In this document: positions 3,001 through 57,158 of the stretch, piece after piece
How the letters are laid out: every line of letters begins with the position of its first letter
How positions within the stretch are numbered: position 1 is the first letter of the stretch
Virus record (IMG/VR): IMGVR_UViG_3300020200_000030
Span: 1-60,648 of that record
Length of the DNA: 60,648 nucleotides
From: a virus
Strand: one strand, 5' to 3'
The notes under the pieces: model-generated
Told to the model about the DNA's origin: nothing
The model's database searches: none
The model's input: the letters and a program-made list of their open reading frames with translations, nothing else
Position numbers and translations under genes: made by a program

Positions 3001-4555
3001 TATAGGAGTAAGCGGAGGAACAGAATTATCAATCTCTAAATATTCGATACGGTTGATGTCGAATTTTATCGGTGGGTATTCTACCCTCAAAAATGAATAT
3101 TCCAATGAAGGAGATTTACCATCGTCTCCTGAATTTATTTTCAGCCCAATTCAAAATAACGTTTATTTACCCAGCGCATTCGTGTTGGAAATGGATCCAG
3201 AATTTTCTTTGATTCGTGCTGGAGTAATTGGAATGACTGGCGTTGGTTCTTTTGCTGATTCATTAGTTAGTCTTCCCAATTCTCAAACTTTTTTAACAGC
3301 TGGAACTTCCACTGATGATGTTAATTTTGGAGGAATCACTATTTCACATCCCACTGGGGCAACTGGATTTTCTTATCCGTGGGTTCTACTTTCTAATTCG
3401 AATTTTGTGGGTTTAACTGGTTCATTTGTAAGCAACTATCAAAAAGACGATATTAATTATCACACCGGTTGGCACAAAACAATCAAAGCTTTCAACAACA
3501 CGGAAACTTACTTCACAACTTTCTTATTCACTGGAGATGCTGTTGTACAAGGATCCGGAAATAACGGAACTATTCCTGGATCTTCTGGAGCTCTTCAAGG
3601 TGGAATATTATCTATTTCCCCTGGTGGAAAAATTCAAGCCGAATCTTATTACGAAATTTTGCCTTCATCCTACGAAGATGTCTATGTTACAAGAATCACT
3701 GAAGTTCAGGGGACAAGAGGAAATGGTGATTATTATTTTTCTGTAAATTATCCTTTGCAACCCGGGGTAACAGGAAGCGGAAATTTAATTCAAAAAAGAA
3801 ACGTAACTGGAACTTTCATCGATTCTTTTTCCACCTTTGAACCTCCTGGACAAACTGGAACACAAAATGAATTATTTTTCACAGTTTCTCCCGATTTAAA
3901 TATTTTCATAACAGGAACGAATCAAGGTTTGACCGGTCCTACGGGTTTACCATATCCTCCTTCGAATTTTTCACCCTTTGTTTCTTTTCTAGAAAGCTTC
4001 AAACCTCCATTGGGCATAGACGAAGGAAATATCATTTCCCGTGCGGGATCGGGTGCGTGGACATGGGTGGATGTCCATAATTCGGACAACAGGCTGTATG
4101 TTCCAATTTTATCCACAGTTTTCTTTTCCAATTATTCCTCTGAAATTTATGGAAAACAAAACAACCGATGGGTACTTTCAAATTCCAGAACTGGTCAGGT
4201 AATTTTAGACGTTAAATTCACGCCATATTTTATTTACACGTTCACAGAATCAGATTATTATACTATTCAAAATACTGTCGAGGATTCGGCGGGGAATGTG
4301 TACCAAATTTCAAAACCTGCCTTCGTAGCGGTGGTTAATCAATCCATCCCCACAGCCAATGATCCAAACCCTCTTCTTGTTAATTCTGCAGATTACGGTT
4401 ATGTTGCTCCGGGTAGAGATTTTGAATCTCAATATGCAGATTTAGATAGACAAATTTTGGAAGATCAAATTGCAATCAGATCCCAGAATGTTCCGAATTA
4501 TGGATCGGGATTGAGATTAGAAGATGATCCTAATTCTACCTTCAGGGGAAACTAA
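62..4555 (+). CDS. Giant tail fibre/adhesin-like structural protein with Pro/Thr repeat stalk
   Basis: A 1497-residue protein, probably exposed on the virion tail. Residues about 1-155 form a Cys-containing N-terminal region. Residues about 156-278 are a Thr/Pro/Gln/Gly low-complexity stalk built of TPTQ and TPTG units. Residues about 280-650 contain phrases such as SIDFDENGNYWLGTEEGI, which resemble repeats of two-component-regulator-type beta-propellers. The rest is Gly/Ser/Asn-rich with scattered GPTG, as in beta-rich fibres. There is no signal peptide, as expected for an intracellularly assembled virion protein. It is the first of a run of large structural genes and ends flush against the oppositely oriented phoH. 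The start follows a TATATA element. A fibre role is inferred from composition and context; the receptor is unknown. Confidence 0.6.
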   Translation: MAQSISVWSVIDPLTGSAKVYTSSQAACDEFTQSFWPGTSLVRTENITILGANSWNPDIEDPCGFCNNFTQTVECCDQNLVGFYLGGTLDGTPLPGTNADSRYVAVAQTYGSTYARILQIAQSISFPFCDPPDPGICPNGVNGAIVKIQGCVGPTNTPTPTPTPTPTQTPTQTQTPTQTPTQTPSISLTPTGTPTGTPTGTPTGTPTGTPTGTPTSTPTQTQTPSVTPTQTQTPSVTPTQTQTPTPTVTSTQTQTPSVTPTSSITPTMTPTPSPTPFADPTVLLAGAYTPDESVWCVGKNLSVFSDGNWSIYDSSNSAVPSNSPWYLDTRSISIDTDNVKWVGCAVSSSTSQVLIFSVEGPYAATGSSWNVDEFNLGSSDWEVPIIYASPYGQEILAVISPLNGGVSAGATCNPGPTGGYLWKYNTLTQNWSEVSPGYVWPTINEIRAKGEQGKNWHYYLATNDGLQIINSGIQTPNFLEDDEIFLPQAKKFNKFNSSLNSTKVYSIDFDENGNYWLGTEEGISYWDGQNFYNWPSPNPPIPVTKVVVRPYGHVFLRCGNPQSNPPTTDGFYHFNGSSFTHFNSSNSNLPSDIIVDFGLATTKSIENGITTYPYDLWIISGNNIVLFDYVLPHVYGSSNFEGTTGWNFLYYSPSPTGATSSRALLPKVQKYNWVYPSWQGYDNSDLILNHPGMDPRNLFLNTNFKAIASGEAGNQNYWNWGQLPTYEQEVQAQEIPNYSWMIGVTSTPLSSGDSIVITSTTRFSNLNVVGGYSNEQFINFGPSSNTADYIFENLNYSGTTGEIGFLTFYTDKGQVQGVIPFLGGRTRVLDVKPSFDGNSLIVAGKFTSYLEAGKFVWNTRFPNAADLTITGVTGPTGGPIGFSNLSTPGITGSFPYPWILNAPISGTGVYIPDPGLLYNEPAYFIAEVDFEIGDQCSYGGIDFSTESLRSRFNLKRFRYFPSINSSNNPIPGPTGFYPPGIGVSGGTELSISKYSIRLMSNFIGGYSTLKNEYSNEGDLPSSPEFIFSPIQNNVYLPSAFVLEMDPEFSLIRAGVIGMTGVGSFADSLVSLPNSQTFLTAGTSTDDVNFGGITISHPTGATGFSYPWVLLSNSNFVGLTGSFVSNYQKDDINYHTGWHKTIKAFNNTETYFTTFLFTGDAVVQGSGNNGTIPGSSGALQGGILSISPGGKIQAESYYEILPSSYEDVYVTRITEVQGTRGNGDYYFSVNYPLQPGVTGSGNLIQKRNVTGTFIDSFSTFEPPGQTGTQNELFFTVSPDLNIFITGTNQGLTGPTGLPYPPSNFSPFVSFLESFKPPLGIDEGNIISRAGSGAWTWVDVHNSDNRLYVPILSTVFFSNYSSEIYGKQNNRWVLSNSRTGQVILDVKFTPYFIYTFTESDYYTIQNTVEDSAGNVYQISKPAFVAVVNQSIPTANDPNPLLVNSADYGYVAPGRDFESQYADLDRQILEDQIAIRSQNVPNYGSGLRLEDDPNSTFRGN
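526..895 (+). repeat. Pro/Thr-coding repeat tract (12-bp and 30-bp units)
   Basis: Direct repeats lie inside the first adhesin gene. About seven 12-bp units of the type ACTCCAACTGGA encode TPTG between about 628 and 705. A perfect 30-bp unit beginning CTCCAACCCA occurs at 711 and 741, with a partial third copy at 771. All units keep the reading frame. The same 12-bp unit recurs near 30545-30620 in the second large adhesin gene. Confidence 0.85.
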
Positions 4556-26476: not shown

Positions 26477-29400
26477 ATGTCAACATCGAGACCATTTGCC
26501 TATAATGCCGGTGGAACAGGAAATAGGATTCCAGGAACTTTACAAATAGGAACTTTGTCCGTTGGTGGTACGGCAGACGCATACACTTATCAATCCCCAG
26601 GTGGTTTGAAATGGTGGAACGGGCCGGACGAGGAATTAGGTTGGATATTAGCCAACCCTGTTCCTTCAGAAACTCAGCCTACCATTGTGGTGTTGGGCCC
26701 TAAAATAAATCCTAAAGGTTGGTCTATCGATACAGACAATACTACTTATCCCGAGGGAATAACAGGAGAGATTACGGGTCCAGGTCAGACTGCGGATGGA
26801 TTTATTTATTATGACGTGCGAATTACGGGATCTTCGGCTGGAGATGGGCAGGCAAAAATTGTTCTTGCCACCAATCCTTCTCCGGTTTCTGCTTCTTCTG
26901 GACAGAAATGGACCCTTACGGCCACTTTATCTTTGCAATCCGGAACTCTTCCTTTGAATAATAGTGTTTTTGTTGAGCTCCAAGAGATGAGCAATGCTAC
27001 AGAAGGACCATCCTCCCAATCACTTGCGAACAAAGTTTCAAATTCAAACCTACAACAACCTGTAGAATATTATGTTATTAGGCAGCTCACCGGAGTTTCA
27101 ACAAATGCAATCAGAGGGGAAATTTCGATTTCCTTGCCTGCATTCGACGAATGCGATTTCACAATTAGAATTGCAGCACCAACATTTGGCTTATCTGTGT
27201 TAGCGGGGGTTGGATTCAACCAGGCATCCACTTATTCTGAATTCATATCCCTGCTCGAGAGATCAACCGGTCAAGTTTTCGGAGACAATGGTGACGCAGC
27301 CGTTCTGTACATGAATTCCAACAATTTGTGGTCCACATATAATCCAGCACAACAAGAAAATTTAATTGTTTCATTGGATGCTGCCAATTACTCTTCTTAT
27401 CCCCAAGCCGGTTCAACCTGGTTTAATTTGGTTGCTGACCAACAGGGGATTCCTTCGGCAAGTTTAGTTAATTCTCCATCTTGGTCTTCTGAAAATGGAG
27501 GGCAATTTAGATTCACTGATTCATCTAATCAAAAAGCCTTTTTAAATTCCACAATTGAATCTACTGAGGGATGGAGTTTGGAATCTTGGTTTTATCTGGA
27601 AACCGATTTGCAAGGAAAGAATACTTCATTAATAACATCATGGGAACTTGGTGATGATGTGCCTTTCCAGCTGGGAACTTGTGTAAATCACCCTGGTGAA
27701 CATACTGGAACGTTAGATGTAGGTATAAGAGTGGAAAATGTGTGGTATACCTCCGCGTCCAATTTTACTCCCGAAACTGGAAGGTGGTATCATGTGGTTG
27801 GAACATTTGATGGATTCACTCTCAGACTTTTTGTAGATGGAGTTCAACAGAATGTTAATGTTGTTCCAAATGAAACGGAATTTTCCCTGTTTGAAACTAA
27901 AGTTAATATAGGTTCTGACGCTTCCCAATCATCTGCAGACCCTGCAAATTATTTGAATGGAAAAATCGCTTTGACTAGAATTTATGGTAGGGCTTTGACG
28001 CCAGAAGCTGTTTTGGAAAACTTCAATGCCAACACAATTCGTTTTTCTAATTTGGTTCTTTCCTCGTATGTTGATTCTGGGTCTATAATTTTCACCTATA
28101 CTTTGCAGGATATTGTTCCGCAGAAAGCCAACATAGAGGTAAACTTCAAACACCAAATGACTTTAAGTGGAAATCCTCTCGAGATTACATCCACTTTGAT
28201 TTTGTATGCCGGACAAACTAGTGCATCGATCAGATATGAAGCCAACTGGGATGGGGCTACCGCTGGGAATTTATCAAATGCCGGTACTTTATCCGTTCTA
28301 TCTATAACTTCCAACGAGCAAATTGTGTACACGGTTGATGCATTAAACGCAACCACAGATGCAGCTCCAACACCTCCCGCGGGTCTTCCTTATGCTTCTC
28401 CTATTTTAGTTTCACAGACACCCACTCCCTATGCAACTCCTACACCAACACCAACAACTTGTTCTAATCCAACCACCTGTTTTGCCTGGACTTACTCTAA
28501 CGTGAGTAATGCAACTGTAAGTGTTGTTGGATGTGATTGTTCGCAAACGATCGAAAATATTGAAATAGACGAGGCCGACACGGTTACTTTTTATTCTCCT
28601 TTTCAGCCAACTTTTTCGTCGGGAACTTATGGAGAAAATACCAGCACAACCCCAGCTAATAATTTTGGATATTTTCCAGAAAATGCTGATAACAGATTAT
28701 GTGCGTGGATTTGGACTAGACCAGATCAGGGAAGACAGGGAAGACTTTACTATACCTCCGGAACCGGGGTTCAAACTTTTAATATTAATATACAGCCGGG
28801 ACAAGTACGTCAAATTTGTTATTCTTATCTCGTTTATTCCAGTGACCTTTATATTTATCCCGGAAATTCCGCAACTCCTTCTTGGTCGCAGGGAAATATT
28901 CTTCGATGCTCAAACTTTGCAACGACACAATGTGGTCTGAATTGTAATTGTTATAAGTGGGATACCACATCAACAGGACCAGTGATGGGAGCATCTGCCC
29001 CCTTCATAGTCTATTATACGTCATGTAACAACGAAGACACCACATTGTATTCTCAGGTAATCGATAAAGATACTCAAGGATCAATTTGTTCCTATGCCTT
29101 GCTTCGGATGGAACAACCAGATGGGGGAGGAGCACCAGTCCCATTCGAATATGCTTTCACCAATGCAGTTAATACCAATCCCACTTTCCCCGCAGGTGGA
29201 AGTGGAGCCCAGGGATTCAACATAAATGCTTCACCGTGTAATGAAGAGTATTATGCCTCATATCCAGTTTCCCCGTCGAACATTTACAGTATTTCTGCTT
29301 CAACCCTGGCTGCAACTGGAGGGATGATCGACTTCCAAATTAGATTCAGCGTAAATGGTTCTTTCCCAACAACAGTTAGTTCGAACACAAATCGAATTGA

Positions 29401-31408
29401 GATACAATTCTCAACAGCAACTCCTGGAACTTTGGGAGGTTTTTGTACAGGCCAAACTGTTGGGAATGCAATTTGGGTTCTTATTGGAACAGGAAATGAT
29501 TACCAAGGTCTAGATGTTTGGTATAATTTCAAGGTTACATCAATATCGTCAGACTCAGTAGGAGGTGTATCTACCAAATACACGTTTGGGGTTGGTTTTA
29601 TGTCTTCATCTGAAGCCCAACAATCATCAAGAAATGTTGCGGGAATAACAATAACATCTGGATTAACCACAAACCTTGGAAATTTAACTGGATGGGATTT
29701 TTTAACTTGGGATGAACCAAATTCAAACGTTGATCCAGGATATATTACTTCTTTTTCAGGAGGATCATGGAACGTTTTTGACAGATTGACACCGCAAATT
29801 TGGATTAACCCCCAAACTACAGACGAAGGAGATGCCATACAAAGTCAATTTCAACTTAGAGATTATATCTGGCTAAGATGGGAAAGTGGAGGAGATTATA
29901 ATTACCAATTATTGAGAATCTGGCAGCCAACTCCTATTCTAAATCCTTCTACTCAAGTCACCGAATATTTTACTCAGTATCAGTTTGGCCCAGTAGCAGG
30001 AATTGTCCCGGAAACTACTGTTACTCTTCTTCCTGCAGGAGTTCCCTACTGGGATACAGTTTGTCAATCAAGCTTTGAGCCTTCTCCAACTCCTATAAGA
30101 GTAACGCCTACACCAACTCTTACCCCGCTTGATAGAACTTGTAATTGTTGGAAGGTTGATGTTACTCCTGGTACAGATGTTAGAATACAATACATGGATT
30201 GTATAACTGGTCAAACCATAAATTTGAATGCCCGAAGATATCCGACGATGATCTGCGCTAATGGATCTTGGACACCTCCCACAATAACCGGTGTTAGTTT
30301 TAGTCAAACCTGTTCCAATTGTTGTTTAAACAATGGAGACTGTAGACCTCCAGCTCCAACCCCATCTAACACCCCCACAATTTCTTTAACCCCGACAAAT
30401 ACACCAACATGTACCCCGACCAGCACCGAATTTGTGCCATTATCATCAACACCTACAGAAACACCCACACCAACTCCTACGCCTACTCAAACCAGTACTA
30501 ATACGCCGACTCCTACCCAAACCCCGACAGTAACTCCTACCCAAACTCCAACTGGAACTCCAACTGGAACTCCAACTGGAACTCCAACTGGAACTCCAAC
30601 TGGAACTCCAACCCCAACACCATCTCAATCTTTCGTGTTCACCTGTGGTACTTCTACTGTTTCTGATATAGATGGCAATGTGTACCAAACCGTTCTTCTA
30701 GGGTCTGCTTGTTGGATGAAATCAAATCTTAGAACTTCTAGATACAATGACGGAACAACTATCGCATATGTTGCTCCAGCATCCTGGAATATAACCACCA
30801 TTACCCCTCAGTACACATCAGCGAGCGGTACTGGTGGAACAGAGAGAGAAGGGAATTTTTACAATTGGTATGCTCTTACCGGGCCTTCTGGGCAAACCCC
30901 CGGTCAAAGTATATGTCCATCCGGTTGGAGAGTTGCTACACTGTCAGATTTCAACACCATGTTTGCTTATTTCGGGAATGGCGGAACCGGTAGTGCAAGT
31001 ATCCCTCAGGCTGAGAGATATGCTTATACAAATGCTCCCGGTGTCACGTTTACGACTAACAACCCCCTTATACAAGCTACGTTTGGATATCAAAATTTTA
31101 GGCCTAGTCCCCAGTCGACTTGTGCTGGGCTATGGGATTATGTTGATGGGTACGGAACCGCGCAACAATCAGGTAACATATTCACCTGTGGAAATACAGA
31201 TTTTTCTTCTCAGGTTACAGGAGCTATCACCCAAAACGGTACAATATTCGGGCCTTTTTGGAGTGATTACCATTGGACCTTCGACGGGGAATATCCAAAC
31301 AACAATCAAGATAGAGCTGTTTTTGCGGGATGGCATGACGACAACAACATCTATTATTTTGCCGCTGGTCCAGGTTACGGAGGCACTTGTAGATGTGTTA
31401 AAATATAA
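26477..31408 (+). CDS. Giant adhesin with LamG-like and FISUMP domains
   Basis: A 1643-residue protein. Residues about 295-520 form a LamG/concanavalin-like jelly roll ([18 protein letters not shown] ... [12 protein letters not shown] ... [10 protein letters not shown]), a fold that often binds carbohydrate. A small Pro/Thr linker lies near 648-662. It is followed by Cys-rich modules in which C-x-C-[YW]-K and a later Y-x-x-C recur (near [10 protein letters not shown] and [10 protein letters not shown]). Residues about 1292-1385 are a TPTQ/TPTG stalk. Residues about 1388-1643 match a FISUMP domain ([51 protein letters not shown]), a family common in Bacteroidota surface proteins. This is probably a receptor-binding tail fibre with a host-derived tip. 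Confidence 0.72.
30352..30630 (+). repeat. Pro/Thr-coding repeat tract in the FISUMP adhesin
   Basis: In-frame repeats encode PTPTPTQT and TPTG units. About five near-perfect copies of the 12-bp unit ACTCCAACTGGA run from about 30545 to 30607. The same unit occurs in the adhesin gene at 62-4555. The tract separates the Cys-rich body from the C-terminal FISUMP domain. Confidence 0.85.
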
Positions 31409-37896: not shown

Positions 37897-38379
37897 ATGC
37901 CTCCATTACTTAAATTCGATGAATTCAATTTCATAAACGAAAATTCAACCCGGAAAAAATGGGAAGATTTGGAAGCTAGAATTAGAGCCAAAGTTCCCGA
38001 AATAGGTGGGGAAACTTGGAGAGGATCCTCGAGCTGGACGGATGCCAGTATAGACAACCCGGAAGGAGCTCTAGGAAGAATTTTGGGTGGTATTGGAATT
38101 GGTCTCTCAAAGGCTGGCAAAGCAATTTTTGGTGCCATTGGAGATAAATTTAATTCGGGTTCAAAAGGCGAAGAGGAAGCTTTCAGCCGGTGGGGTGAAA
38201 ATATCCAGTCCAGCGGTAAGAACAAACAAAAAGATTATGAAGATTTTTACACCAAATCCATTTACTCCGGCAAAGAAACTTTCGGTCCTGATTTTGATGT
38301 TGAAAAACCCAGAACCAGAGAACAGAGAAAATACCGAGATTATCTTAGAAGATCAAGATCATATTTTGACATAGACTAA
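37897..38379 (+). CDS. Putative head cargo protein with capsid-targeting-like N-terminus
   Basis: A 160-residue protein of unknown family. It starts MPPLLKFDEFNFINE then NSTRKK, which fits a targeting peptide (F-D-x-F) ending in an I-x-E site comparable to the [LI]-x-E cut by the T4 gp21 prohead protease. After that comes a charged region, a Gly-rich hydrophobic stretch (LGRILGGIGIGLSKAGKAIF, about residues 65-90) that could be an amphipathic or membrane-active helix, and a strongly basic end (RTREQRKYRDYLRRSRSYF). Basic, small internal proteins are typical of T4 heads. Preceded by a late-type element; the next gene starts one base after its stop. Confidence 0.5.
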   Translation: MPPLLKFDEFNFINENSTRKKWEDLEARIRAKVPEIGGETWRGSSSWTDASIDNPEGALGRILGGIGIGLSKAGKAIFGAIGDKFNSGSKGEEEAFSRWGENIQSSGKNKQKDYEDFYTKSIYSGKETFGPDFDVEKPRTREQRKYRDYLRRSRSYFDID

Positions 38380-39318
38380 ATGATTGCTAATTTTAACCAA
38401 TTTATGAGATTAAACGAAGGCGGATCTGCCATCAAATCCTCACGTAGAATTCGAGAGGACGAAGCACAGTCCACACTGGACCACATCGAATCAACTTTAT
38501 TTCCCCTTTTAGGTGGTGGTAATTTCGATGAAGATTTTTTGCTCATCGGAAGTATTGGAAAAAAGAAAAATCCGGAAGATGACTCGGGAGACGTTGATTT
38601 AGGTATTTCAAAGGAATTTCTTGTGGATCAAATGGGTTCTACACCCGAAAATGTTCTGGTAGATTTGGAACAATATTTGAAATCAGAATTACCAGAATTT
38701 CTTGGATTTGAACCCGAAATGAAGTTAATGAAGGGATTGGGTGTACTTTCTATCGGATGGCCTATTGGAGGAGAGCCTGAAAGAGGTATTGTTCAGCTCG
38801 ACCTTATTCCTCTATCCGATATGGATTGGGCAAGGTTTATTTATTACTCTCCAGACTATCGTCTGGACGAATCTGTTTACAAATCTGCCCATAGAAATTG
38901 GCTATTTCAGGCCATTCTTTCCTCTTTGAAAGAGGTAGAAAGTGTGGACGATGATGGAAATATCATGGATTACGAAGGTTATGTTTTGAGATTAAGCGAA
39001 GGAATTTTCAAATCAAAAAAATCATATCGTGGAATCAAAAAACCCAGACTTTCCCGGCCACAAACCATAGAAGGAACAGCCCAATTTATTACCAACGATC
39101 CAAAAGAGGCAGTAGAACTTATGTTTGGGCCAGGAATTAGACCCGATCAAGTAAAAACATTCGAAGATGCCTGGTCCCAAGTTACTTCTCTCAATTATGT
39201 TTATAACGATAGATTTCCAGAAATCATGGAAGACTTTGTCAGATATCTAGAAAATGCTAAATTACCAATTCCCTCCGAGGTACAGGCAAAACAAAATTTG
39301 GTGCCAGATGATGTTTGA
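38380..39318 (+). CDS. Pol-beta-superfamily nucleotidyltransferase with capsid-targeting-like N-terminus
   Basis: A 312-residue protein. The start MIANFNQFMRLNE then GG matches the targeting peptide with an L-N-E/G cleavage-like site. The nucleotidyltransferase signature follows: GS at 57-58 (LLIGSIGKKK), D71 and D73 (SGDVDLG), and a third acidic residue D141 (IVQLDLIPL). Next is DWARFIYYSPDYR and a basic SAHRN, a pattern seen in phage nucleotidyltransferase-like proteins. Such enzymes transfer a nucleotide to RNA, a protein or a small molecule; the target here is unknown. It overlaps the next gene by 11 nt and belongs to a cassette with the ligase/NMNAT fusion. T4 injects Alt in a comparable way, but similarity of role is inference. 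Confidence 0.65.
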   Translation: MIANFNQFMRLNEGGSAIKSSRRIREDEAQSTLDHIESTLFPLLGGGNFDEDFLLIGSIGKKKNPEDDSGDVDLGISKEFLVDQMGSTPENVLVDLEQYLKSELPEFLGFEPEMKLMKGLGVLSIGWPIGGEPERGIVQLDLIPLSDMDWARFIYYSPDYRLDESVYKSAHRNWLFQAILSSLKEVESVDDDGNIMDYEGYVLRLSEGIFKSKKSYRGIKKPRLSRPQTIEGTAQFITNDPKEAVELMFGPGIRPDQVKTFEDAWSQVTSLNYVYNDRFPEIMEDFVRYLENAKLPIPSEVQAKQNLVPDDV

Positions 39319-39736
39319 TCCTTTGTACACGGCCTTGGATTTTTTCCTTGATGGCGATTCCCCCCAGGCGGTCGTCAGAGATGGAAAGTTGGTGCTGTTC
39401 AAAACAGAAAACGGTTCTTCTGGTTTAATTATCAAAACAAAACACGGGGACAGAAAAATCGTGTTGAACAACGAGGTAATTTACACTTTGGAAAAAAAGG
39501 TCTTCGAATTGATTGATTTCGAAAATTTTGATCCTCCAGGAATTCAGATTTACCTTCCTAAACTTATTTTGGCTTGGAATTCTCCTTTACAGTTAAAATC
39601 AAAGATCTTTGTTAGAAAAATTATCGAAGGAATTAGTCAGGTTATTCATTTGGATCTGGTTGAAGATTTAAACAAAGAAATGGAAAAGGCGTTTGGGATA
39701 TTTACATTTGTAAAGGATCTCCCATTAAATAAATAA
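39308..39736 (+). CDS. Hypothetical protein in nucleotidyltransferase-ligase cassette
   Basis: A 142-residue protein. The frame is open from 39254, but the tandem ATGATG at 39308 overlaps the stop of the nucleotidyltransferase gene and is the likely start by coupling. Beta-rich N-terminal half (GKLVLFKTENGSSGLIIKTK, KIVLNNEVIYTLEKKVF), then a helical half (SKIFVRKIIEGISQVIHLDL). No catalytic motif is recognised. Three nt separate it from the RNA ligase/NMNAT fusion gene, so it may be a partner of one of the enzymes. Confidence 0.5.
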   Translation: MMFDPLYTALDFFLDGDSPQAVVRDGKLVLFKTENGSSGLIIKTKHGDRKIVLNNEVIYTLEKKVFELIDFENFDPPGIQIYLPKLILAWNSPLQLKSKIFVRKIIEGISQVIHLDLVEDLNKEMEKAFGIFTFVKDLPLNK

Positions 39737-39739
39737 ATT

Positions 39740-41653
39740 ATGGCAGGAATTAATCACCTATATGATATGTACAATAAGAAAGGAGCGGAGTTTACTCAAT
39801 CTCTCTTTTCTCAATTTGTTACCATCAACGAAAAGATGGATGGGTCTGCCTTTTGTTTTGAAAGAGATCTGGACACTGGAAAATTTAATTTTTATCGTAG
39901 AGATCAAAGAAATCCCATAACATTGGTCGACAGGACGTTGATGAAGTATTATGAAAAACCAATCCAGTACATCGAATCCTTGCCTCCTGATATTTTAGAG
40001 AAAATTCCAAGAGGATGGAGATTCGGTTTTGAATATTTTGCCAACACAAGTCCGGTTGAAATTGTTTACGATAGAATTCCCAAGAATCACCTCATTCTTT
40101 CTTTTGTCCACAAAATGGATTTACACGGAAAGATTGCCAAAACAATTCAACAAAAAGACAAGTTGGATACCTGGGCAGATCTTCTCGGAGTGGAAAGAAG
40201 TCCAATCATTTTCCAAGGATATCTGAATGAAACACAAAAAGAGCAGCTGACCGAATTTTTGGCAACCCCATTTCCACAGTTGGTTTCCCGTTTTCAAACA
40301 CAGAGTTTTGTTAGATTCATCATTTCTGTTTTGAATCCAAAATTGAAATCATCCGCCCTGAACGATGATTTAGATAAAGACGTCGAAGGAGTGGTATTCA
40401 GATTTGGAGAACCAAACTCGGAGAACGAAACTGTGCTGGCCAAAATGGTAGATCCACTGTTCACCGATTTAGCCAAAACTAAATATCAAGAAAAGAAGGA
40501 TAAAAAGCCTTCTGATTTTCTTGGGATCACACTTTTGGACGTCATGAATTTTATCCTTCAACAAGGTGTAGATTCTTTCGAGGTTGAAGGTCAGGGGGAA
40601 GACGAAAGATATATTTCTTTCATTTCTGATGTTTTTGCTAAATTTTTGGATGAAAATTCCGATAAATATAAAGGGACAGACTTTGAAGAACCTGATTATT
40701 TGAAGAAGCCCGAGTTCAGGTTGAATCGGGATTTAATCAGGGATCGTAGGGTTGCTAAATTTGTCGAAGAAGACGAGGCATACGAGTCACTGTACAAGCT
40801 GATGTTAAATTCATTCAGAAAACTTAAAACCCGTGCTTCTGGCATTGTTACCTCTGGAACTCTGGCCCAGCTAAATTTGCTAATTCAAGAAATTAAAGAT
40901 CATATCGAACGTCCTAAAAAAGCAGTCAACGAATCAGAATTTGTTAGTTTTTTGGATTTTCAAAAGGATTCAAAGCCCAATGTCCAATATGTGTTGGAAG
41001 AAAGCGAGGATTCAGAGAAGAACGAGAATCCTTTACTTTCATTCGATGATTTCATTTCAAAATTAGAAAGCATCGACCAACACTCAAATAAAGGAGAAGA
41101 GCCGTTGGTTGAGAAGGAAGAAGACAAAAAGATCAACGTTATTGTGGGTCGTTTTCAGCCTTTCCATTTGGGTCATCTGAATATGGCTAAAAAATTACAC
41201 GAGAAAAATAAATTACCTTCTTTTGTGATCGTTGTTTATCCGGGACACAATAAGAGCGGAAAATCCCCATTTGGCGAGCAAACAATAAATCAGTACATGG
41301 ATGCTGTGGTGAAAGAACATGGTGATGTGTTAAAAGACTACATGATTGTTCCAAGGGGTTTGTTGGGATCTGCGGTGAATAAATTGGTTGAGATGGGATT
41401 TGAACCTCATCTTGTTGGTGCAGGTGAAGATCGACAGGACGATTATGCCAAACAGATGGAATACATCAAAAAAACAGAGTTGTTTGATAAATTACCGGAA
41501 GGATTCAAATTGGTTGAAACACCAAGAAGCACATCTGCCACAGAGGTGAGATCTAAATTGGAAGAAGAAGATTATTCCTCATTGAAAAAGATGCTTCCAA
41601 AATCGGTTCTCAATTTATATTCGGGTTTGGTCTCAGAGCTGAAAAAAAAATAG
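39740..41653 (+). CDS. RNA-ligase-like / NMN adenylyltransferase-like fusion protein
   Basis: A 637-residue two-domain protein. Residues about 25-270 look like an ATP-dependent RNA ligase: K32 in EKMDGS (motif I, covalent nucleotidyl-lysine), WRFGFEYF (motif III), VEGVVFRF (motif IV) and LAKMVDP (motif V). Residues about 469-637 look like a NadM-type cytidylyltransferase-like domain: GRFQPFHLGHL (HxGH motif), VYPGHNKSGKSPF and STSATEVR at 597-604 (the I-S-x-T/A-x-V-R motif). NMNATs make NAD+ from NMN and ATP. Between them, SFDDFISKLE (434-443) resembles the targeting peptide of the neighbours. The fusion suggests RNA repair linked to NAD or adenylate chemistry; this is inference. Confidence 0.75.
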   Translation: MAGINHLYDMYNKKGAEFTQSLFSQFVTINEKMDGSAFCFERDLDTGKFNFYRRDQRNPITLVDRTLMKYYEKPIQYIESLPPDILEKIPRGWRFGFEYFANTSPVEIVYDRIPKNHLILSFVHKMDLHGKIAKTIQQKDKLDTWADLLGVERSPIIFQGYLNETQKEQLTEFLATPFPQLVSRFQTQSFVRFIISVLNPKLKSSALNDDLDKDVEGVVFRFGEPNSENETVLAKMVDPLFTDLAKTKYQEKKDKKPSDFLGITLLDVMNFILQQGVDSFEVEGQGEDERYISFISDVFAKFLDENSDKYKGTDFEEPDYLKKPEFRLNRDLIRDRRVAKFVEEDEAYESLYKLMLNSFRKLKTRASGIVTSGTLAQLNLLIQEIKDHIERPKKAVNESEFVSFLDFQKDSKPNVQYVLEESEDSEKNENPLLSFDDFISKLESIDQHSNKGEEPLVEKEEDKKINVIVGRFQPFHLGHLNMAKKLHEKNKLPSFVIVVYPGHNKSGKSPFGEQTINQYMDAVVKEHGDVLKDYMIVPRGLLGSAVNKLVEMGFEPHLVGAGEDRQDDYAKQMEYIKKTELFDKLPEGFKLVETPRSTSATEVRSKLEEEDYSSLKKMLPKSVLNLYSGLVSELKKK

Positions 41654-41677: not shown

Positions 41678-42211
41678 GTGAAAAATTTATTCAATTATAC
41701 AGATTTTCTATCCAAAAATTTGAACGAGGCCGATGGCTTTGGAACTATGCCCTTCTTGCTTAAAAAAGAAGGTGATGTTTATTACTATTTTTTCCAATTG
41801 GAAAGAGAAAAAGAAGACCCAGAGGGATTTTGTCTTATGATTGGTAAGTATTCACAATACGAGTCGATGGATGGACCTAAAAATTCATATGCTGTTTTGA
41901 ATATCAACAAAATTGGAACAGAAGTTATTGAAGACATAGCCATCAACAAGGGAAGCTTGCCAGAAAAAAACAAAGTTTCTTTCAAATTATCCGGGGGTGA
42001 ACTCTCAAGATTATTCGAACAAATTGGAAAGTGTATTTCCAGCTACCTGGAGAAAAATCCAAAAATCATCAGAATGGTTGACGAAATGAATTTTAACTTG
42101 GATATCAAGAACTATGGAGCATATTCTAAATCTCTGCTTTCTTTTGCTTTAGGAGAAGATTGGCACATGCAAGATGGATCGTCAAAAAAGATTTACCTTT
42201 GGAATCGATAA
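41678..42211 (+). CDS. Putative head cargo protein with capsid-targeting-like N-terminus
   Basis: A 177-residue protein starting with GTG at 41678. The first residues MKNLFNYTDFLSKNLNE then ADG match the shared peptide and end in L-N-E/A, very like T4 internal-protein cleavage sites. The rest (EGDVYYYFFQLEREKEDPEG ..., SFKLSGGELSRLFEQIGKCI) is an alpha/beta domain without a recognised family; its LGEDWHMQDGSSKKIYLWN end is distinctive. Late-type element just upstream. Function unknown; packaging with DNA is inferred. Confidence 0.52.
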   Translation: MKNLFNYTDFLSKNLNEADGFGTMPFLLKKEGDVYYYFFQLEREKEDPEGFCLMIGKYSQYESMDGPKNSYAVLNINKIGTEVIEDIAINKGSLPEKNKVSFKLSGGELSRLFEQIGKCISSYLEKNPKIIRMVDEMNFNLDIKNYGAYSKSLLSFALGEDWHMQDGSSKKIYLWNR

Positions 42212-44609: not shown

Positions 44610-46379
44610 GTGAAACATATCAAAAATTTTACAATTTTTCTTTTCGAATCTGAAGAATTCACTAAAGAGGACTATTTGAACTTTAAACAATATACAAATA
44701 ATAGCAAGAAAGGGATTCCGTCAACAAAGGAACAAATGGAAGCAATGAGAAAATATCATAGAATGAAGCGTAAAGGTTTGGATCCAATTGACCCTTTCCG
44801 AGAAAAGAAGGGGGAAAAAGAAGAATTCACGGAAGAAGATCGCCGAAACTTTCAGGAATATATTAAGAAGATTTATGCTAAACCAAGATTAGAACCAACG
44901 CAAAAAGAAAGAGAAGCATATAATAAATATAGTAGGCAAAAAAGAATATTGGGTCATTCTCCTTTTAAAAGACAAGAAGAAGAATTCACGGAAGAAGATT
45001 ACCGAAACTTTAAGGAATATAATAGGAAGATTTATGCTAAACCAAAATTAGAACCAACGCAAAAAGAAAGAGAAGCATATAATAAATATAATAGGATCAG
45101 AACGAAAGGATTGGATCCAATTGCTCCTTTTCGAAGAAAAGAAGAAGAATTTACGGAAGAAGATTACCGAAACTATCGGGAATATAGTAGGAAGTATCAA
45201 TCTAACCGAATCAACACTAAACCAAGATTAGAACCAACTCAAAAAGAAAGAGAAGCATATAATAAATATCAAAGGCAACGAAAAATATCGAATCCAATTG
45301 CTCCTCTTAAAAAACAAGAAGAAGAATTCACGGAAGAAGATTACCGAAACTTTAAGGAATATAATAAGAAGATTAATGCTAAACCAAGATTAGAACCAAC
45401 GCAAAAAGAAAAAGAAGCATATAATAAATATAATAGGATCAGAACGAAAGGATTGGATCCAATTGCTCCTTTTCGAAGAAAAGAAGAAGAATTTACGGAA
45501 GAAGATTACCGAAACTATCAGGAATATAATAGGAAGATTAACGCTAAACCAAAATTAGAACCAACGCAAAAAGAAAGAGAAGCATATAATAAATATTATA
45601 GGATACGGAGATTATCGGGTCTTCCTTCTATTAAAGGACAAGAAGAAGAATTCACGGAAGAGGAATACCGAAACTATCAGGAATATAATAAGAAGGTTAA
45701 TGCTAAACCAAGATTAGAACCAACTCAAAAAGAAAAAGAAGCATATAATAAATATCAAAGAATGCTCACGAGAGGATTGGATCCAACTGCTGCTTTCACA
45801 GGAAAAATTAGAATTATAACAGCAACCGGGGATTGGTCAAAATTAACGCTAGATGGAAGCCCTTTGTTTTTGTCCCATGCTAACACTTATTTTGTAACAT
45901 TCTACAAAAATCCCACAAAAGAAATGATAAAGAGACTCCTTGGGGATAGTGACCAGCCGTTTACTTGTGACCCAAAGGAAGCAAGTCAGGAAATTTTTGG
46001 TGGGGATTTTCCGTACATCAATAAAAAAGAGGGATTGATATTTGCTGCAGATCCTAAATATTCTCCAGCAGATTATGAAAATGAATTGGTTCGAACAGCG
46101 AAAACCATATGTGAAAACCCAGACGAAAACGAAAATATGGATGGGGAATATGCTTTAAATATTTTAGAGAATGGCTGGGAAAACTTCACACCTGAACACA
46201 TTAACCACTTGATTTTGCTTGCTAGTGAAAGTGCAAAAAAACCATCCGCGTATAATATCTTTTCTAAGGATGATATAAAAAGAATTGATCTTTTTTTGAA
46301 ATTTGCTAAATATAATTTAAAAGGTCAACCATTAAAATTAATGGATCCTAGAATAGAAATTAAATTCAAAGTAGTTTAA
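44610..46379 (+). CDS. Seven-repeat protein with targeting-like N-terminus
   Basis: A 589-residue protein starting with GTG. The N-terminus MKHIKNFTIFLFE then SEEF fits the shared peptide with an L-F-E site. Seven tandem units of about 53-59 residues follow (residues about 15-398). Each starts E-E-F-T-E-E-D-Y-R-N and contains AKPRLEPTQKEREAYNKY, then a basic linker such as RIRTKGLDPIAPFRR. The first unit is divergent and the others are nearly identical. Units are highly charged and helical with Tyr at regular spacing. A unique C-terminal domain (about 400-589, IITATGDWSKLTLDGSPLF ...) has no recognised family. It may be an internal scaffold or DNA-binding cargo; function unknown. Confidence 0.6.
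   Translation: MKHIKNFTIFLFESEEFTKEDYLNFKQYTNNSKKGIPSTKEQMEAMRKYHRMKRKGLDPIDPFREKKGEKEEFTEEDRRNFQEYIKKIYAKPRLEPTQKEREAYNKYSRQKRILGHSPFKRQEEEFTEEDYRNFKEYNRKIYAKPKLEPTQKEREAYNKYNRIRTKGLDPIAPFRRKEEEFTEEDYRNYREYSRKYQSNRINTKPRLEPTQKEREAYNKYQRQRKISNPIAPLKKQEEEFTEEDYRNFKEYNKKINAKPRLEPTQKEKEAYNKYNRIRTKGLDPIAPFRRKEEEFTEEDYRNYQEYNRKINAKPKLEPTQKEREAYNKYYRIRRLSGLPSIKGQEEEFTEEEYRNYQEYNKKVNAKPRLEPTQKEKEAYNKYQRMLTRGLDPTAAFTGKIRIITATGDWSKLTLDGSPLFLSHANTYFVTFYKNPTKEMIKRLLGDSDQPFTCDPKEASQEIFGGDFPYINKKEGLIFAADPKYSPADYENELVRTAKTICENPDENENMDGEYALNILENGWENFTPEHINHLILLASESAKKPSAYNIFSKDDIKRIDLFLKFAKYNLKGQPLKLMDPRIEIKFKVV
44652..45800 (+). repeat. Tandem coding repeats, about 161-176 bp period, seven units
   Basis: Units marked by GAATT[CT]AC at about 44656, 44822, 44982, 45147, 45323, 45488 and 45649. 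The long near-identity at DNA level of units 2-7 indicates recent duplication or gene conversion. Copy number could vary between relatives. Confidence 0.88.
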
Positions 46380-53273: not shown

Positions 53274-54461
53274 ATGTTTGTAAAAAAGAGAGATGGTTCG
53301 AAAGAAGCAGTCAGATTTGATAAAATCTCAAATCGGATTCGAAAGGTAACCTATGGATTAAATTCTGACTTCGTAGATGCTATGGAGATAGCACAAAAAG
53401 TTATTGCCGGTATTTATGATGGAATTTCAACTTGGGAACTGGATAATTTAGCAGCAGAAACAGCTGCTTCTTTGATTCCACGACATCCAGACTACTCCAT
53501 CTTGGCTTCTAGAATAGCGGTTTCAAGATTGCACAAATCTACAAAGAAAAAATTCTCGGAAACTATCCAGGATTTGTTTTCCTACATCGATCCCGAAACC
53601 GGATTGGAATCTGGTTTGATCTCCGAAGAAACCTATCGGGTGGTGATGGAACATAAAGACACTTTGGATTCAGCCATTATTCACGATCGGGATTTTAATT
53701 TCGAATATTTTGGTTTTAAAACACTCGAGAAAAGTTACCTTCTCAAGATGCTCGGCAAACCGGCAGAAACCCCTCAACACATGTACATGAGAGTAGCGGT
53801 TGGAATTTGGGGGGATGACATCAAAAACACGATTAAGACCTACGAGTTGCTTTCAAATCACATGATGACTCACGCAACTCCGACACTTTTTAACGCCGGA
53901 ACGAAAAAGCCTCAATTGTCTTCCTGTTTCTTGTTAACCATGTCGGAAGATTCTATCCCCGGAATTTACAAAACTCTTTCCGACGTTGCCTTGATTTCTC
54001 AGCATGCCGGGGGAATTGGTTTGGCAATTCACAATGTTAGAGCAACAGATTCTTACATCAGAGGAACAAATGGTAAATCAAATGGGATTATACCTATGCT
54101 TAGAGTTTATAATGAAACCGCTAGGTATGTTGACCAATGTTTTGTTGGTGAAACTTTGATTAAAATGGAAGGCGGATTCTCTAGAATTGATGAAATATAT
54201 CCTGGGGATTTTGTTATCTCTTCAGATGGTAATAAACACGAGGTAATTCAAAATTTGGATTACCCCATTGGAGATAAAAATTTAATATCAGTTCAAACGG
54301 AAGATGGAGAAAACATAGTAACAGAAGATCATCTTTTTTTAGTTGTTAGAAACGGATCATCTATTGACAATTTAGAAGAAAAGTTATCTATGGGAATTGT
54401 AGAAGCAGAGTGGATTGAGGCAAAAAAATTAACGGATAGCGATATTTTACTAAAAATGTAA
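53274..54461 (+). CDS. nrdA: NrdA N-terminal half fused to split-intein N-terminal fragment
   Basis: A 395-residue protein. Residues 1-288 are the N-terminal part of class Ia ribonucleotide reductase large subunit: ATP-cone ([18 protein letters not shown]), SCFLL (active-site Cys), [13 protein letters not shown] and [12 protein letters not shown]. At C289 the sequence switches to an intein start: [10 protein letters not shown] (block A, catalytic Cys1), PGDFVIS, and [13 protein letters not shown] (block B with T-x-x-H), ending after 107 residues at a stop. The rest of NrdA is in the next gene. The C-terminal intein half lies there too, so the enzyme is meant to be rejoined in trans or to assemble as two chains. 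Confidence 0.93.
54138..54461 (+). other. Split intein N-fragment in nrdA
   Basis: 107 codons from the block A Cys to the stop. Cys1 and the TxxH motif are present. Inserted between the Q of VDQ and GGGKRKG, a highly conserved part of class Ia R1. No homing endonuclease motif is seen. Confidence 0.88.
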
Positions 54462-54493: not shown

Positions 54494-54688
54494 ATGGCAA
54501 ACATCTTTTTACATCACCCTCTACAGGATGGAGAGCTCCATGAGGAATCATCTGTACTTTCTGTCTCTAAATTGAAATTCAATAAGGTAACAAAAGTAGA
54601 AAAAATATCAGGTAGGGAAGGAAAAGTTTACGATCTGCGAATTTCTGAGATTCCTAATTACTCTACGAATGTATCAATTGTTCACAAT
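54494..54688 (+). other. Split intein C-fragment in nrdA
   Basis: 65 codons from a new ATG to the C-terminal His-Asn (VSIVHN). Block F is GKVYDLRISEIPNYSTN. The next residue, extein position +1, is Gly rather than the Cys/Ser/Thr needed for normal splicing. Confidence 0.85.
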
Positions 54689-56290
54689 GGGGGTGGAAAG
54701 AGAAAGGGAAGCTTCGCCATTTATCTAGAACCTTGGCATGCTGATGTTGAAGATTTTCTGGACTTAAGAAAAAATACAGGTAAAGAAGAAAGAAGAGCCA
54801 GAGATTTGTTTTTGGCTTTGTGGATTCCCGATTTATTTATGGAGAGGGTTCACGAGGATTCTACCTGGTCTTTGTTTTCTCCATCCGAAGTTCCCAATTT
54901 ACATGAAAAATTTGGAAAGGAATTCAATGCCGCTTATTTGGAAGCAGAAGAGGCTGGGAAGGCCAGAAAAACAATTAAGGCCCGGGATTTGTGGGGCAAG
55001 ATTTTGGATTCACAAATTGAAACCGGAACCCCATATATTTTGTATAAGGATGCGGCCAACAGGAAATCCAACCAACAAAATTTAGGTACAATCAAATCTT
55101 CTAATTTGTGCACAGAAATTATAGAATATGCCAGTAAAGACGAAACTGCAGTTTGTAACTTGGCTTCGATCGCGGTGAATAAGTTTCTGAAATCTACAGA
55201 CGCAAGAACCTCCAAGATTGCCAGAAAAAAATGCGAGGTAGATCACGAATTGCTTTACAATGTTGCCTACCAAACAACATTAAATTTGAACAAGGTAATT
55301 GATGTTAATTTTTATCCAACCCCAGAAACTAAAAATTCGAATTTCAGACACCGCCCAATTGGCATTGGAATTCAGGGTTTAGCTGATCTTTTTGCCATTA
55401 TGGGATTGCCATTTACATCTCCAGAGGCAAGAAAAATCAACTCTGAAATTTTTGAAACCATTTACTTCGCTTCTATGTCTGCTTCTGTGGATTTGGCTAA
55501 GAAAGAAGGTCATTATGAGAGTTTTCCTGGATCTCCTCTTTGCCAAGGCAAATTCCAATTTAACCTCTGGGACGTTACAGATTCCGAACTTTCTGGTAGA
55601 TGGGACTGGGATAAATTGAGAAAATCTGTGATGAAACACGGATCCAGAAATTCTTTGCTTCTGGCACCCATGCCAACCGCGAGCACAGCTCAAATTATGG
55701 GAAACAATGAAGCATTTGAACCTTTTACCTCCAATATTTATACAAGAAGAACCCTGTCGGGAGAATTTATCATCATCAACAAATATCTTGTGAAAGATCT
55801 AATCAATTTGGGTCTTTGGAATGAAGATGTTAAAAATTTGATTATCATCCACAAAGGATCTGTTCAAAACATTCCAAACATCCCCGATGACATCAAGGAG
55901 GTTTACAAAACGGTTTGGGAAATCAAACAGAAAGATCTTATTGAGATGTCTGCAGAAAGAGGTAGATTCATTTGTCAATCCCAATCTCTCAACCTTTTCA
56001 TTGAAGGTGTTAACGCTGCCAAATTAACTGCCGCCCATTTCCATTCTTGGAAATTGGGTTTGAAAACTGGCATGTATTATCTTCGCACTAAGTCCGCTGT
56101 AGACGCCATGACTGGACTTGGGATAGACGTTTCTAAATATCAGACAATACCAAAAAAAGAAGAGCCCAAAGTTTTCAAAAAGACTTTGGAAACCCCAAAT
56201 GAAGAATTACAAGTTCTGGCCAACCAAACTTTAGAAGATTTAAGTTGTAGTTTGGACAACCCAGATGATTGTATCGCCTGTGGATCTTAA
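54494..56290 (+). CDS. nrdA: Split-intein C-terminal fragment fused to NrdA C-terminal half
   Basis: A 598-residue protein. Residues 1-65 are the intein C-fragment ending VSIVHN. From residue 66, GGGKRKGSFAIYLEPWH continues NrdA, with NLCTE and VCNLAS (active-site Asn/Cys/Glu and redox Cys), LLAPMPTASTAQIMGNNEAF and a C-terminal CIACGS (redox C-x-x-C). Exteins together are 288 + 533 = 821 residues, a full-length R1. The gene is in another frame from the first half and is separated by 32 nt with its own leader (AAATTCATAAA before ATG), like the leader before the first half. The split is real, not a sequencing frameshift, since both intein halves are complete. Confidence 0.93.
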   Translation: MANIFLHHPLQDGELHEESSVLSVSKLKFNKVTKVEKISGREGKVYDLRISEIPNYSTNVSIVHNGGGKRKGSFAIYLEPWHADVEDFLDLRKNTGKEERRARDLFLALWIPDLFMERVHEDSTWSLFSPSEVPNLHEKFGKEFNAAYLEAEEAGKARKTIKARDLWGKILDSQIETGTPYILYKDAANRKSNQQNLGTIKSSNLCTEIIEYASKDETAVCNLASIAVNKFLKSTDARTSKIARKKCEVDHELLYNVAYQTTLNLNKVIDVNFYPTPETKNSNFRHRPIGIGIQGLADLFAIMGLPFTSPEARKINSEIFETIYFASMSASVDLAKKEGHYESFPGSPLCQGKFQFNLWDVTDSELSGRWDWDKLRKSVMKHGSRNSLLLAPMPTASTAQIMGNNEAFEPFTSNIYTRRTLSGEFIIINKYLVKDLINLGLWNEDVKNLIIIHKGSVQNIPNIPDDIKEVYKTVWEIKQKDLIEMSAERGRFICQSQSLNLFIEGVNAAKLTAAHFHSWKLGLKTGMYYLRTKSAVDAMTGLGIDVSKYQTIPKKEEPKVFKKTLETPNEELQVLANQTLEDLSCSLDNPDDCIACGS

Positions 56291-56311
56291 TTTTACATTT
56301 TAATAAAAACC

Positions 56312-56530
56312 ATGACAAATATTTTAATCTTTAACACCAAAAAACACACCCTCCAGGTAGAATCTGAATCACGACATCTAAGAGGAGTGTACTCTGAAAT
56401 CATGACCATTCAACTTTCTCAAGCCCATTACAATTTTTATGAGGTTTATCAAGAAAGCCAAGATTCAAGAAGAGTTCCCCTTTTCAGATTCCCAATTCAA
56501 AATACGATTATTAAATATGAGCACAGTTAA
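56312..56530 (+). CDS. Small hypothetical protein
   Basis: A 72-residue protein between nrdA and adk: ILIFNTKKHTLQVESESRHL at the start, QLSQAHYNFYEVYQESQDSR in the middle. No family is recognised, no signal peptide. Its end overlaps the adk start by 14 nt (adk ATG at 56517), which suggests translational coupling to the kinase and a role in the nucleotide pathway or just close packing. Confidence 0.5.
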   Translation: MTNILIFNTKKHTLQVESESRHLRGVYSEIMTIQLSQAHYNFYEVYQESQDSRRVPLFRFPIQNTIIKYEHS

Positions 56531-57158
56531 AAAATTCGACGAATTTGTCCACCTTCACGAAAGAGAGCTTCCTGATTTTCAGGGCAAGATCTTAGTAATC
56601 ATGGGCCCTCCTGGATCCGGGAAAGGGACCTTCTCAAAAAGACTTTCTGAAAAAGAAGGTTACAATCATATTTCTACTGGGGATTTGATTCGAAAATCGA
56701 AGGACCCAGAATTAAAAGCGAAGATTGCAAAGGGCGAGTATATTGACGATGGAACGATGGTATCAATGCTCAGAAAAGAACTTAAAAAGTTAGATCCTGG
56801 AATGGGAATCATTCTCGACGGATTTCCTAGAACGGTTAAACAGGCTGGAATGTTGGACTCTTTGCTCGGTAAAATGGGATTAGGTCTAAGCCACACAATC
56901 TATTTGGATTTGGACGAAAAAACCGCTACGGATAGGATTTTATCCAGAGCCGAAAAAGAAAATCGTGAGGATGACAAAGATCCAGAGGTAATTAAAAAAA
57001 GATTCCAAACCTACACGGAAAAAACTGCTCCTCTGATCGATCTGTACACCAAAAGCAGAAAATTGAAAAAATTCGACTCTGGTGTAGGAATAGATCGTTT
57101 ATACAAAAAAATTGTGAACCAACTGAATCTCAAAAAAACCGATTCTAAAACAAATTAA
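56517..57158 (+). CDS. adk: Adenylate kinase with capsid-targeting-like N-terminal extension
   Basis: A 213-residue nucleoside monophosphate kinase. The P-loop GPPGSGKGT is at residues 30-38, about 23 residues later than in ordinary adenylate kinases. The extension MSTVKKFDEFVHLHE then RELPDFQG matches the targeting peptide with an L-H-E site. NMP-binding ISTGDLIRK, IILDGFPRT, and RAEKENREDDKDPEVIKKRF (short LID, no zinc fingers) follow. Adk interconverts ATP+AMP and 2 ADP. The frame is open upstream from 56439, but 56517 is the natural start. Packaging into the head would be unusual for an adenylate kinase; it is inferred from the peptide. Confidence 0.85.
   Translation: MSTVKKFDEFVHLHERELPDFQGKILVIMGPPGSGKGTFSKRLSEKEGYNHISTGDLIRKSKDPELKAKIAKGEYIDDGTMVSMLRKELKKLDPGMGIILDGFPRTVKQAGMLDSLLGKMGLGLSHTIYLDLDEKTATDRILSRAEKENREDDKDPEVIKKRFQTYTEKTAPLIDLYTKSRKLKKFDSGVGIDRLYKKIVNQLNLKKTDSKTN

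Follow-up and report, generated by a model that had tools for sequence, protein, structure and literature searches.

Phage T4 repairs host-broken tRNA with an RNA-ligase-based system made up of Rnl1 and Pnkp, and the phage enzymes known to counter anticodon nucleases by repairing RNA are produced after infection. Among phage nucleotidyltransferases (NTases), those of the RlaP family are predicted to refill the nucleotides lost at broken tRNA ends ahead of ligation (PMC7824862). The head of T4 has its own import route: gp21 cleaves after L/I-X-E, and targeting requires only about ten residues (PMC9026906); six residues are removed from T4 Alt, at ITE (PMC5694885). Here we describe a viral gene that appears to bring these two themes together. 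It lies in a 60,648-nt stretch of viral DNA, which we call the window, and we think it somewhat probable that its product is a virion-borne Pol-beta NTase, probably template-independent, that acts in an RNA-end-repair module with the RNA ligase encoded downstream.

The gene (38380-39318, plus strand, like its motifs and the neighbouring genes described below) encodes a 312-aa precursor and was assigned from the reading of the open reading frame, a family alignment and a profile tie to Pol-beta NTases. The frame is open and contains the GS...SGDxD...VQxD series that the sequence-only reading had described. It is a genuine gene under purifying selection, with a dN/dS of 0.096 against an 84%-identical ortholog on a 219-kb contig (L014). 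The GS motif, GSIGKK (residues 57-62; 38548-38565), is followed by SGDVD (residues 69-73; 38584-38598), which supplies the first two predicted catalytic aspartates, D71 and D73, both invariant in 26 members, and then by VQLD (residues 138-141; 38791-38802) with the third, D141. Because seven residues in window numbering (G57, G60, G70, D71, D73, Q139 and D141) are invariant across the 26-member family alignment, the pattern is not a chance one; S58 and K61 are at least 90% conserved.

Relatives were gathered by tblastn and a pattern scan of viral contigs and of cultured jumbo and T4-like phages. They were found at 54 loci on viral contigs, including several near-duplicates, and in Lak megaphages, Sinorhizobium phage Phosso (two copies), Agrobacterium phage Atu_ph07, Pseudomonas phage PA5oct and its kin, and Flavobacterium phage immuto. 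A scan of genome contigs with the single protein as sole query detected no cellular homologues. Direct family scans of the protein alone produced no significant match in Pfam, PHROGs, NCBIfam, PADLOC or PDB sequences, and the Pfam scan gave no match to a Pol-beta family. The family profile, when aligned by hhalign with a second phage group typified by the N-terminal domain of immuto gp088, matched at 96.7% (E 3.7e-10, 200 columns), superposing the GS motif, the DxD and the third Asp; VQLD falls on the third-Asp region of that group. Comparisons with unrelated controls gave 2.6% and 0.1%. Two members of the gp088-type group score above the NTP_transf_2 (PF01909) cut-off and show sub-threshold matches to DNA_pol_B_palm, Polbeta and MTPAP. 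The sequence-only reading had taken the residues as a Pol-beta pattern, and profile comparison, by way of one intermediate group, supports placing the family in that superfamily. The enzyme class is ordinary, and what is out of the ordinary is that the family was previously unrecognised and that its product is probably packaged.

Other assignments for the protein were tried and rejected. One short PDB profile match to a UPF0358 protein (E 0.006) fell outside the motifs and disappeared with a larger alignment. At E 10 no PADLOC family was hit, models of CBASS CD-NTases and other known defence NTases included. Membership in RlaP (PF10127) was likewise dropped, with no Pfam match at E 1 or better and an hhalign probability of 0.3% against a single RlaP sequence.

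Ahead of the enzyme domain, the protein begins with MIANFNQFMRLNE (38380-38418), a 13-residue stretch that ends LNE/GG and precedes GGSAIK. We consider it a putative capsid-targeting tag on the grounds of the relatives' sites, the enrichment of such tags and the T4 gp21 motif, and we predict a prohead-protease cut after E13. To score tags, the pattern F..F.{1,8}E was counted in the first 22 residues and in internal stretches. It occurs at 5 of 54 N-termini in the window, compared with 14 of 775 internal stretches (p 0.006), and at 24 of 379 N-termini in the 219-kb relative, compared with 44 of 2273 (p 9e-6). Sites were counted over 31 non-redundant family members bearing the GG motif. The initiator methionine directly precedes this motif in 12 of the 31, and an upstream extension is present in the other 19, one of which (L017) has a fused ligase domain as its extension. 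Every extended member has Glu immediately before GG (19/19), and 17 of the 19 have Leu or Ile at P3. The extensions vary in length and sequence among relatives, and the family tree implies at least six switches of tag state, so common descent alone does not account for the shared Glu. The untagged homologues (Lak, immuto, Phosso, Atu_ph07, PA5oct) begin M-(G/S)G, and methionine aminopeptidase, given its general specificity, should likewise mature them to GG or SG. Tagged and untagged enzymes should therefore reach one common mature N-terminus, and the GG terminus may be important for activity. The targeting peptide with an L-N-E/G site that had been proposed from the letters alone thus holds up as what looks like a T4-type head-targeting propeptide, putative in the window phage, and mass spectrometry (MS) of an NTase homolog in PA5oct and of a partner enzyme in S-SM1 adds to this.

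In PA5oct, the untagged family member gp253 is annotated as structural by ESI-MS/MS, and over a further 40 kb of the PA5oct genome only three genes carry the MS mark. Ribonucleotide reductase is on the PA5oct list as well, which leaves room for contamination. The cytidyltransferase T4-GC190 of cyanophage S-SM1 was detected in virions (PMC3037559), as was the cytidylyltransferase of S-CREM2 (PMC10665884). The S-SM1 protein starts MKKFSAFLNE/A, and the gene before it, T4-GC71, encodes DUF6267. A virion location is therefore supported by MS in relatives, for one homolog of the NTase and for one tagged partner enzyme.

Head genes (gp21-type protease and Gp23) are absent from the window and its near contigs, and searches of the nearest contigs for PF03420, T4 head proteins and portal returned no match. 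A contig bearing a 65%-identical ortholog of the window's ligase gene (G004, L080) has a Gp23 fragment at its edge. L102 holds a relative of this capsid gene (98% identity over the searched stretch), just downstream of a head-maturation protease (PF03420, 29.9 bits against a cut-off of 27; phrog_207, E 2.7e-36). The capsid sequences from L102-like loci, 38 in number, carry LNE/SA near the N-terminus, at the expected end of the propeptide. We also observed that the L102 protease (L102:3697-5721) is fused to a scaffold-like region of repeated, L-x-E-rich YSEYLAENLD units; this part contains 20 [LI]xE sites, compared with 8 in shuffles.

The NTase gene sits among other tagged genes. A 160-aa tagged protein that has no Pfam match (MPPLLKFDEFNFINEN...; 37897-38379) ends directly before the NTase start. 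Downstream, a small ORF whose start was set from its ortholog (39308-39736) separates the NTase from a 637-aa fusion (39740-41653), in which motifs, Pfam and profile comparison identify an RNA-ligase-like domain and a C-terminal HIGH-type nucleotidyltransferase. A 177-aa protein, read from its sequence as tagged (MKNLFNYTDFLSKNLNE/A...), follows at 41678-42211. The fusion has KMDG at about 39833-39844, a tag-like joining stretch, PLLSFDDFISKLES, and GRFQPFHLGH in the HIGH part. Ligase motifs I (KxDG), IV (EGxV) and V (KxxD) are represented by K32, D34, E216, G217, V219, K235 and D238, all invariant. Against Pfam RNA_ligase (cut-off 27), the window domain scores 23.2 bits and a 65%-identical ortholog (L081) 29.1 bits; the product of 39740-41653 is thus a putative ATP-dependent RNA-ligase-like protein. 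In PDB, the ligase-like group profiles matched no RNA ligase by sequence, and the match between the two ligase-like alignments is confined to the surroundings of KxDG (77%). The HIGH domain scores 25.2 bits for CTP_transf_like (cut-off 21), and its profile matches NMN adenylyltransferase (NMNAT) structures in PDB by sequence.

Among relatives, the NTase is fused in both orders to DUF6267, which retains KxDG and EGxV and is not mentioned in the literature searched. Elsewhere it adjoins two other RNA-ligase-like groups, the window's included, often with a HIGH enzyme as well. Its partners, fused or adjacent, thus comprise three kinds of RNA-ligase-like protein. The junction between ligase and NTase in L017/L018 reads SLNE/GGNA, as if the fusion polypeptide were cut in the head, and L045 unites ligase-like, NTase and HIGH domains in a single 940-aa protein. 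At least ten switches of ligase type occur along the NTase tree, which signals a functional pairing. About ten NTase loci have no ligase in the fetched range (Lak, Phosso copy 1 and kin, L024, L052 and L063). With the same profiles, no further ligase-like or HIGH gene came up in those parts of the 219-kb relative that were fetched, or in immuto's first 100 kb. In immuto, gp088 (L009:6908-9631; 907 aa) sits directly downstream of the NTase homolog and combines a HIGH enzyme with a second Pol-beta NTase; its C-terminal stretch has an HExxH-like motif. In S-PM2 (L089:4986-6765), DUF6267 and the cytidyltransferase are split across two annotated genes in NC_006820, and the S-PM2 record LN828717 gives an unbroken alignment across the DUF6267 region, so that the two records differ by a frameshift or in their sequencing.

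Other features of these genomes deserve mention in their own right. The large subunit of ribonucleotide reductase is seemingly split into two ORFs (53274-54461 and 54494-56290) within an intein-like stretch, and the second ORF reads ...STNVSIVHN/GGG; this may be a split intein, or one that a small insertion has interrupted. An adenylate kinase (56439-57158; PF00406, E 4e-35) has a tag-like N-terminus at an internal Met, MSTVKKFDEFVHLHE/R, and is possibly a packaged nucleotide kinase. A tagged 589-aa protein (44610-46379) contains about seven degenerate repeats (EEFTEEDYRNFKEYNRK...PTQKEREAYNKY). Two very large proteins (62-4555 and 26477-31408) contain long runs that include TPTGTPTG, perhaps linkers in tail-associated proteins. 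In the 219-kb relative, ARAGORN predicts a tmRNA gene (L073:15910-16347), with a tRNA-Ser close by.

In the mechanism we favor, the tag would carry the NTase precursor into the prohead, where a gp21-type prohead protease would cleave after LNE and leave a mature enzyme starting GGSAIK inside the head. This enzyme would be ejected together with the phage DNA, and NTase and ligase would then refill 3' nucleotides lost from RNA so that the ends could be sealed. The RNA is most likely tRNA cut by host defence nucleases. We infer both the cutting and delivery in the window phage and the RNA substrate, tRNA being the specific RNA that we have in mind. More tentatively, and with some doubt, we propose that the capsids of T4-like and jumbo phages hold a pre-made RNA repair kit and that the prohead protease bares the required Gly-Gly only in finished heads, which would place repair at the moment of DNA entry, ahead of the translation of any phage gene. 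The proposed members of this kit, as part of the same joint reading, are the Pol-beta NTase, the RNA ligase and the NMNAT-like enzyme.

The enzyme might instead be an ordinary cytoplasmic repair NTase whose N-terminal extension is no packaging signal. Untagged relatives do exist, but we consider this unlikely given the Glu and L/I site statistics among relatives, the same LNE site in the relatives' capsid proteins, the genome-wide tag enrichment and the tagged partner found in S-SM1 virions. If the protein is packaged, it could also serve host takeover, nucleotidylating a host protein or small molecule early, with Alt-like timing, while the link to ligases is incidental. The tag and the virion evidence suit any early effector, and protein nucleotidylyltransferases are found among the Pol-beta NTases. 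However, a protein modifier hardly explains three kinds of ligase-like partner and at least ten ligase-type changes on the tree, and we find this account improbable. The sequence-only reading had offered Alt as its functional model; the repeated fusion and adjacency to ligases point to RNA end repair, and that model is probably wrong. From the substrates it had listed, the ligase linkage singles out tRNA as the most likely, with a host protein or a small molecule less so.

In another account, the NTase and ligase would mend or join entering phage DNA, in the manner of Pol-beta/ligase gap repair. Pol-beta enzymes and ATP-dependent ligases act on DNA too, and replication and recombination genes are close by. 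However, RNA_ligase (PF09414) is the sole ligase family matched, and DUF6267 keeps general ligase motifs that are neutral between RNA and DNA; repair of DNA ends or gaps has little probability in our estimate. A last account centers on NAD: the NMNAT-like HIGH domain would be the central enzyme and would regenerate NAD+ to offset NAD-depleting defence, with the NTase and ligase engaged in NAD- or ADP-ribose-linked chemistry. It draws on the match of the HIGH domain to NMN adenylyltransferases, on immuto-type loci that pair the NTase with the second NTase-HIGH protein and have no ligase in range, and on a gene annotated as NAD synthetase nearby in immuto. At many NTase loci that do have a ligase, no HIGH domain is detectable, and we regard an NAD-centered module as very improbable.

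Should virion-borne repair be borne out, the viral DNA could bring a repair kit into the cell ahead of new protein synthesis, and the enzyme would already be in place when anticodon-nuclease defences act, before translation is shut down. A possible function would follow for DUF6267, as well as for the virion-located cyanophage cytidyltransferase.

How does the locus compare with described systems? Like T4 Alt and IPI-III, the window NTase has a short N-terminal propeptide ending in L/I-X-E, cut by gp21 in T4 and predicted to be cut here, but Alt is an ADP-ribosyltransferase, whereas the window protein is a Pol-beta-type NTase that has no Pfam ADP-ribosyltransferase match. T4-like cyanophages pair DUF6267 (T4-GC71) with a cytidyltransferase (T4-GC190), the same type of ligase-like and HIGH pair; unlike the window, the cyanophage and Melnitz loci examined yielded no Pol-beta NTase of the window type. 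With RlaP, the window NTase shares the Pol-beta superfamily, a phage origin and a genomic association with RNA ligases. RlaP is a separate gene in Atu_ph07, Lak-A2 and T4, the first two of which also carry a member of the window family, and many members of the window family, in contrast to RlaP, are capsid-tagged. The T4 gene (L095, NC_000866, about 56041-56445, minus strand) scores above the curated cut-off for PF10127. We propose an RNA-end-repair NTase because the window family follows the genomic logic of RlaP, though it is a different family, and our best reading by analogy is that the enzyme works like RlaP without being RlaP. Compared with T4 Rnl1/Pnkp, the window module has different kinds of ligase, an additional NTase and HIGH enzyme, and a probable place in the phage head.
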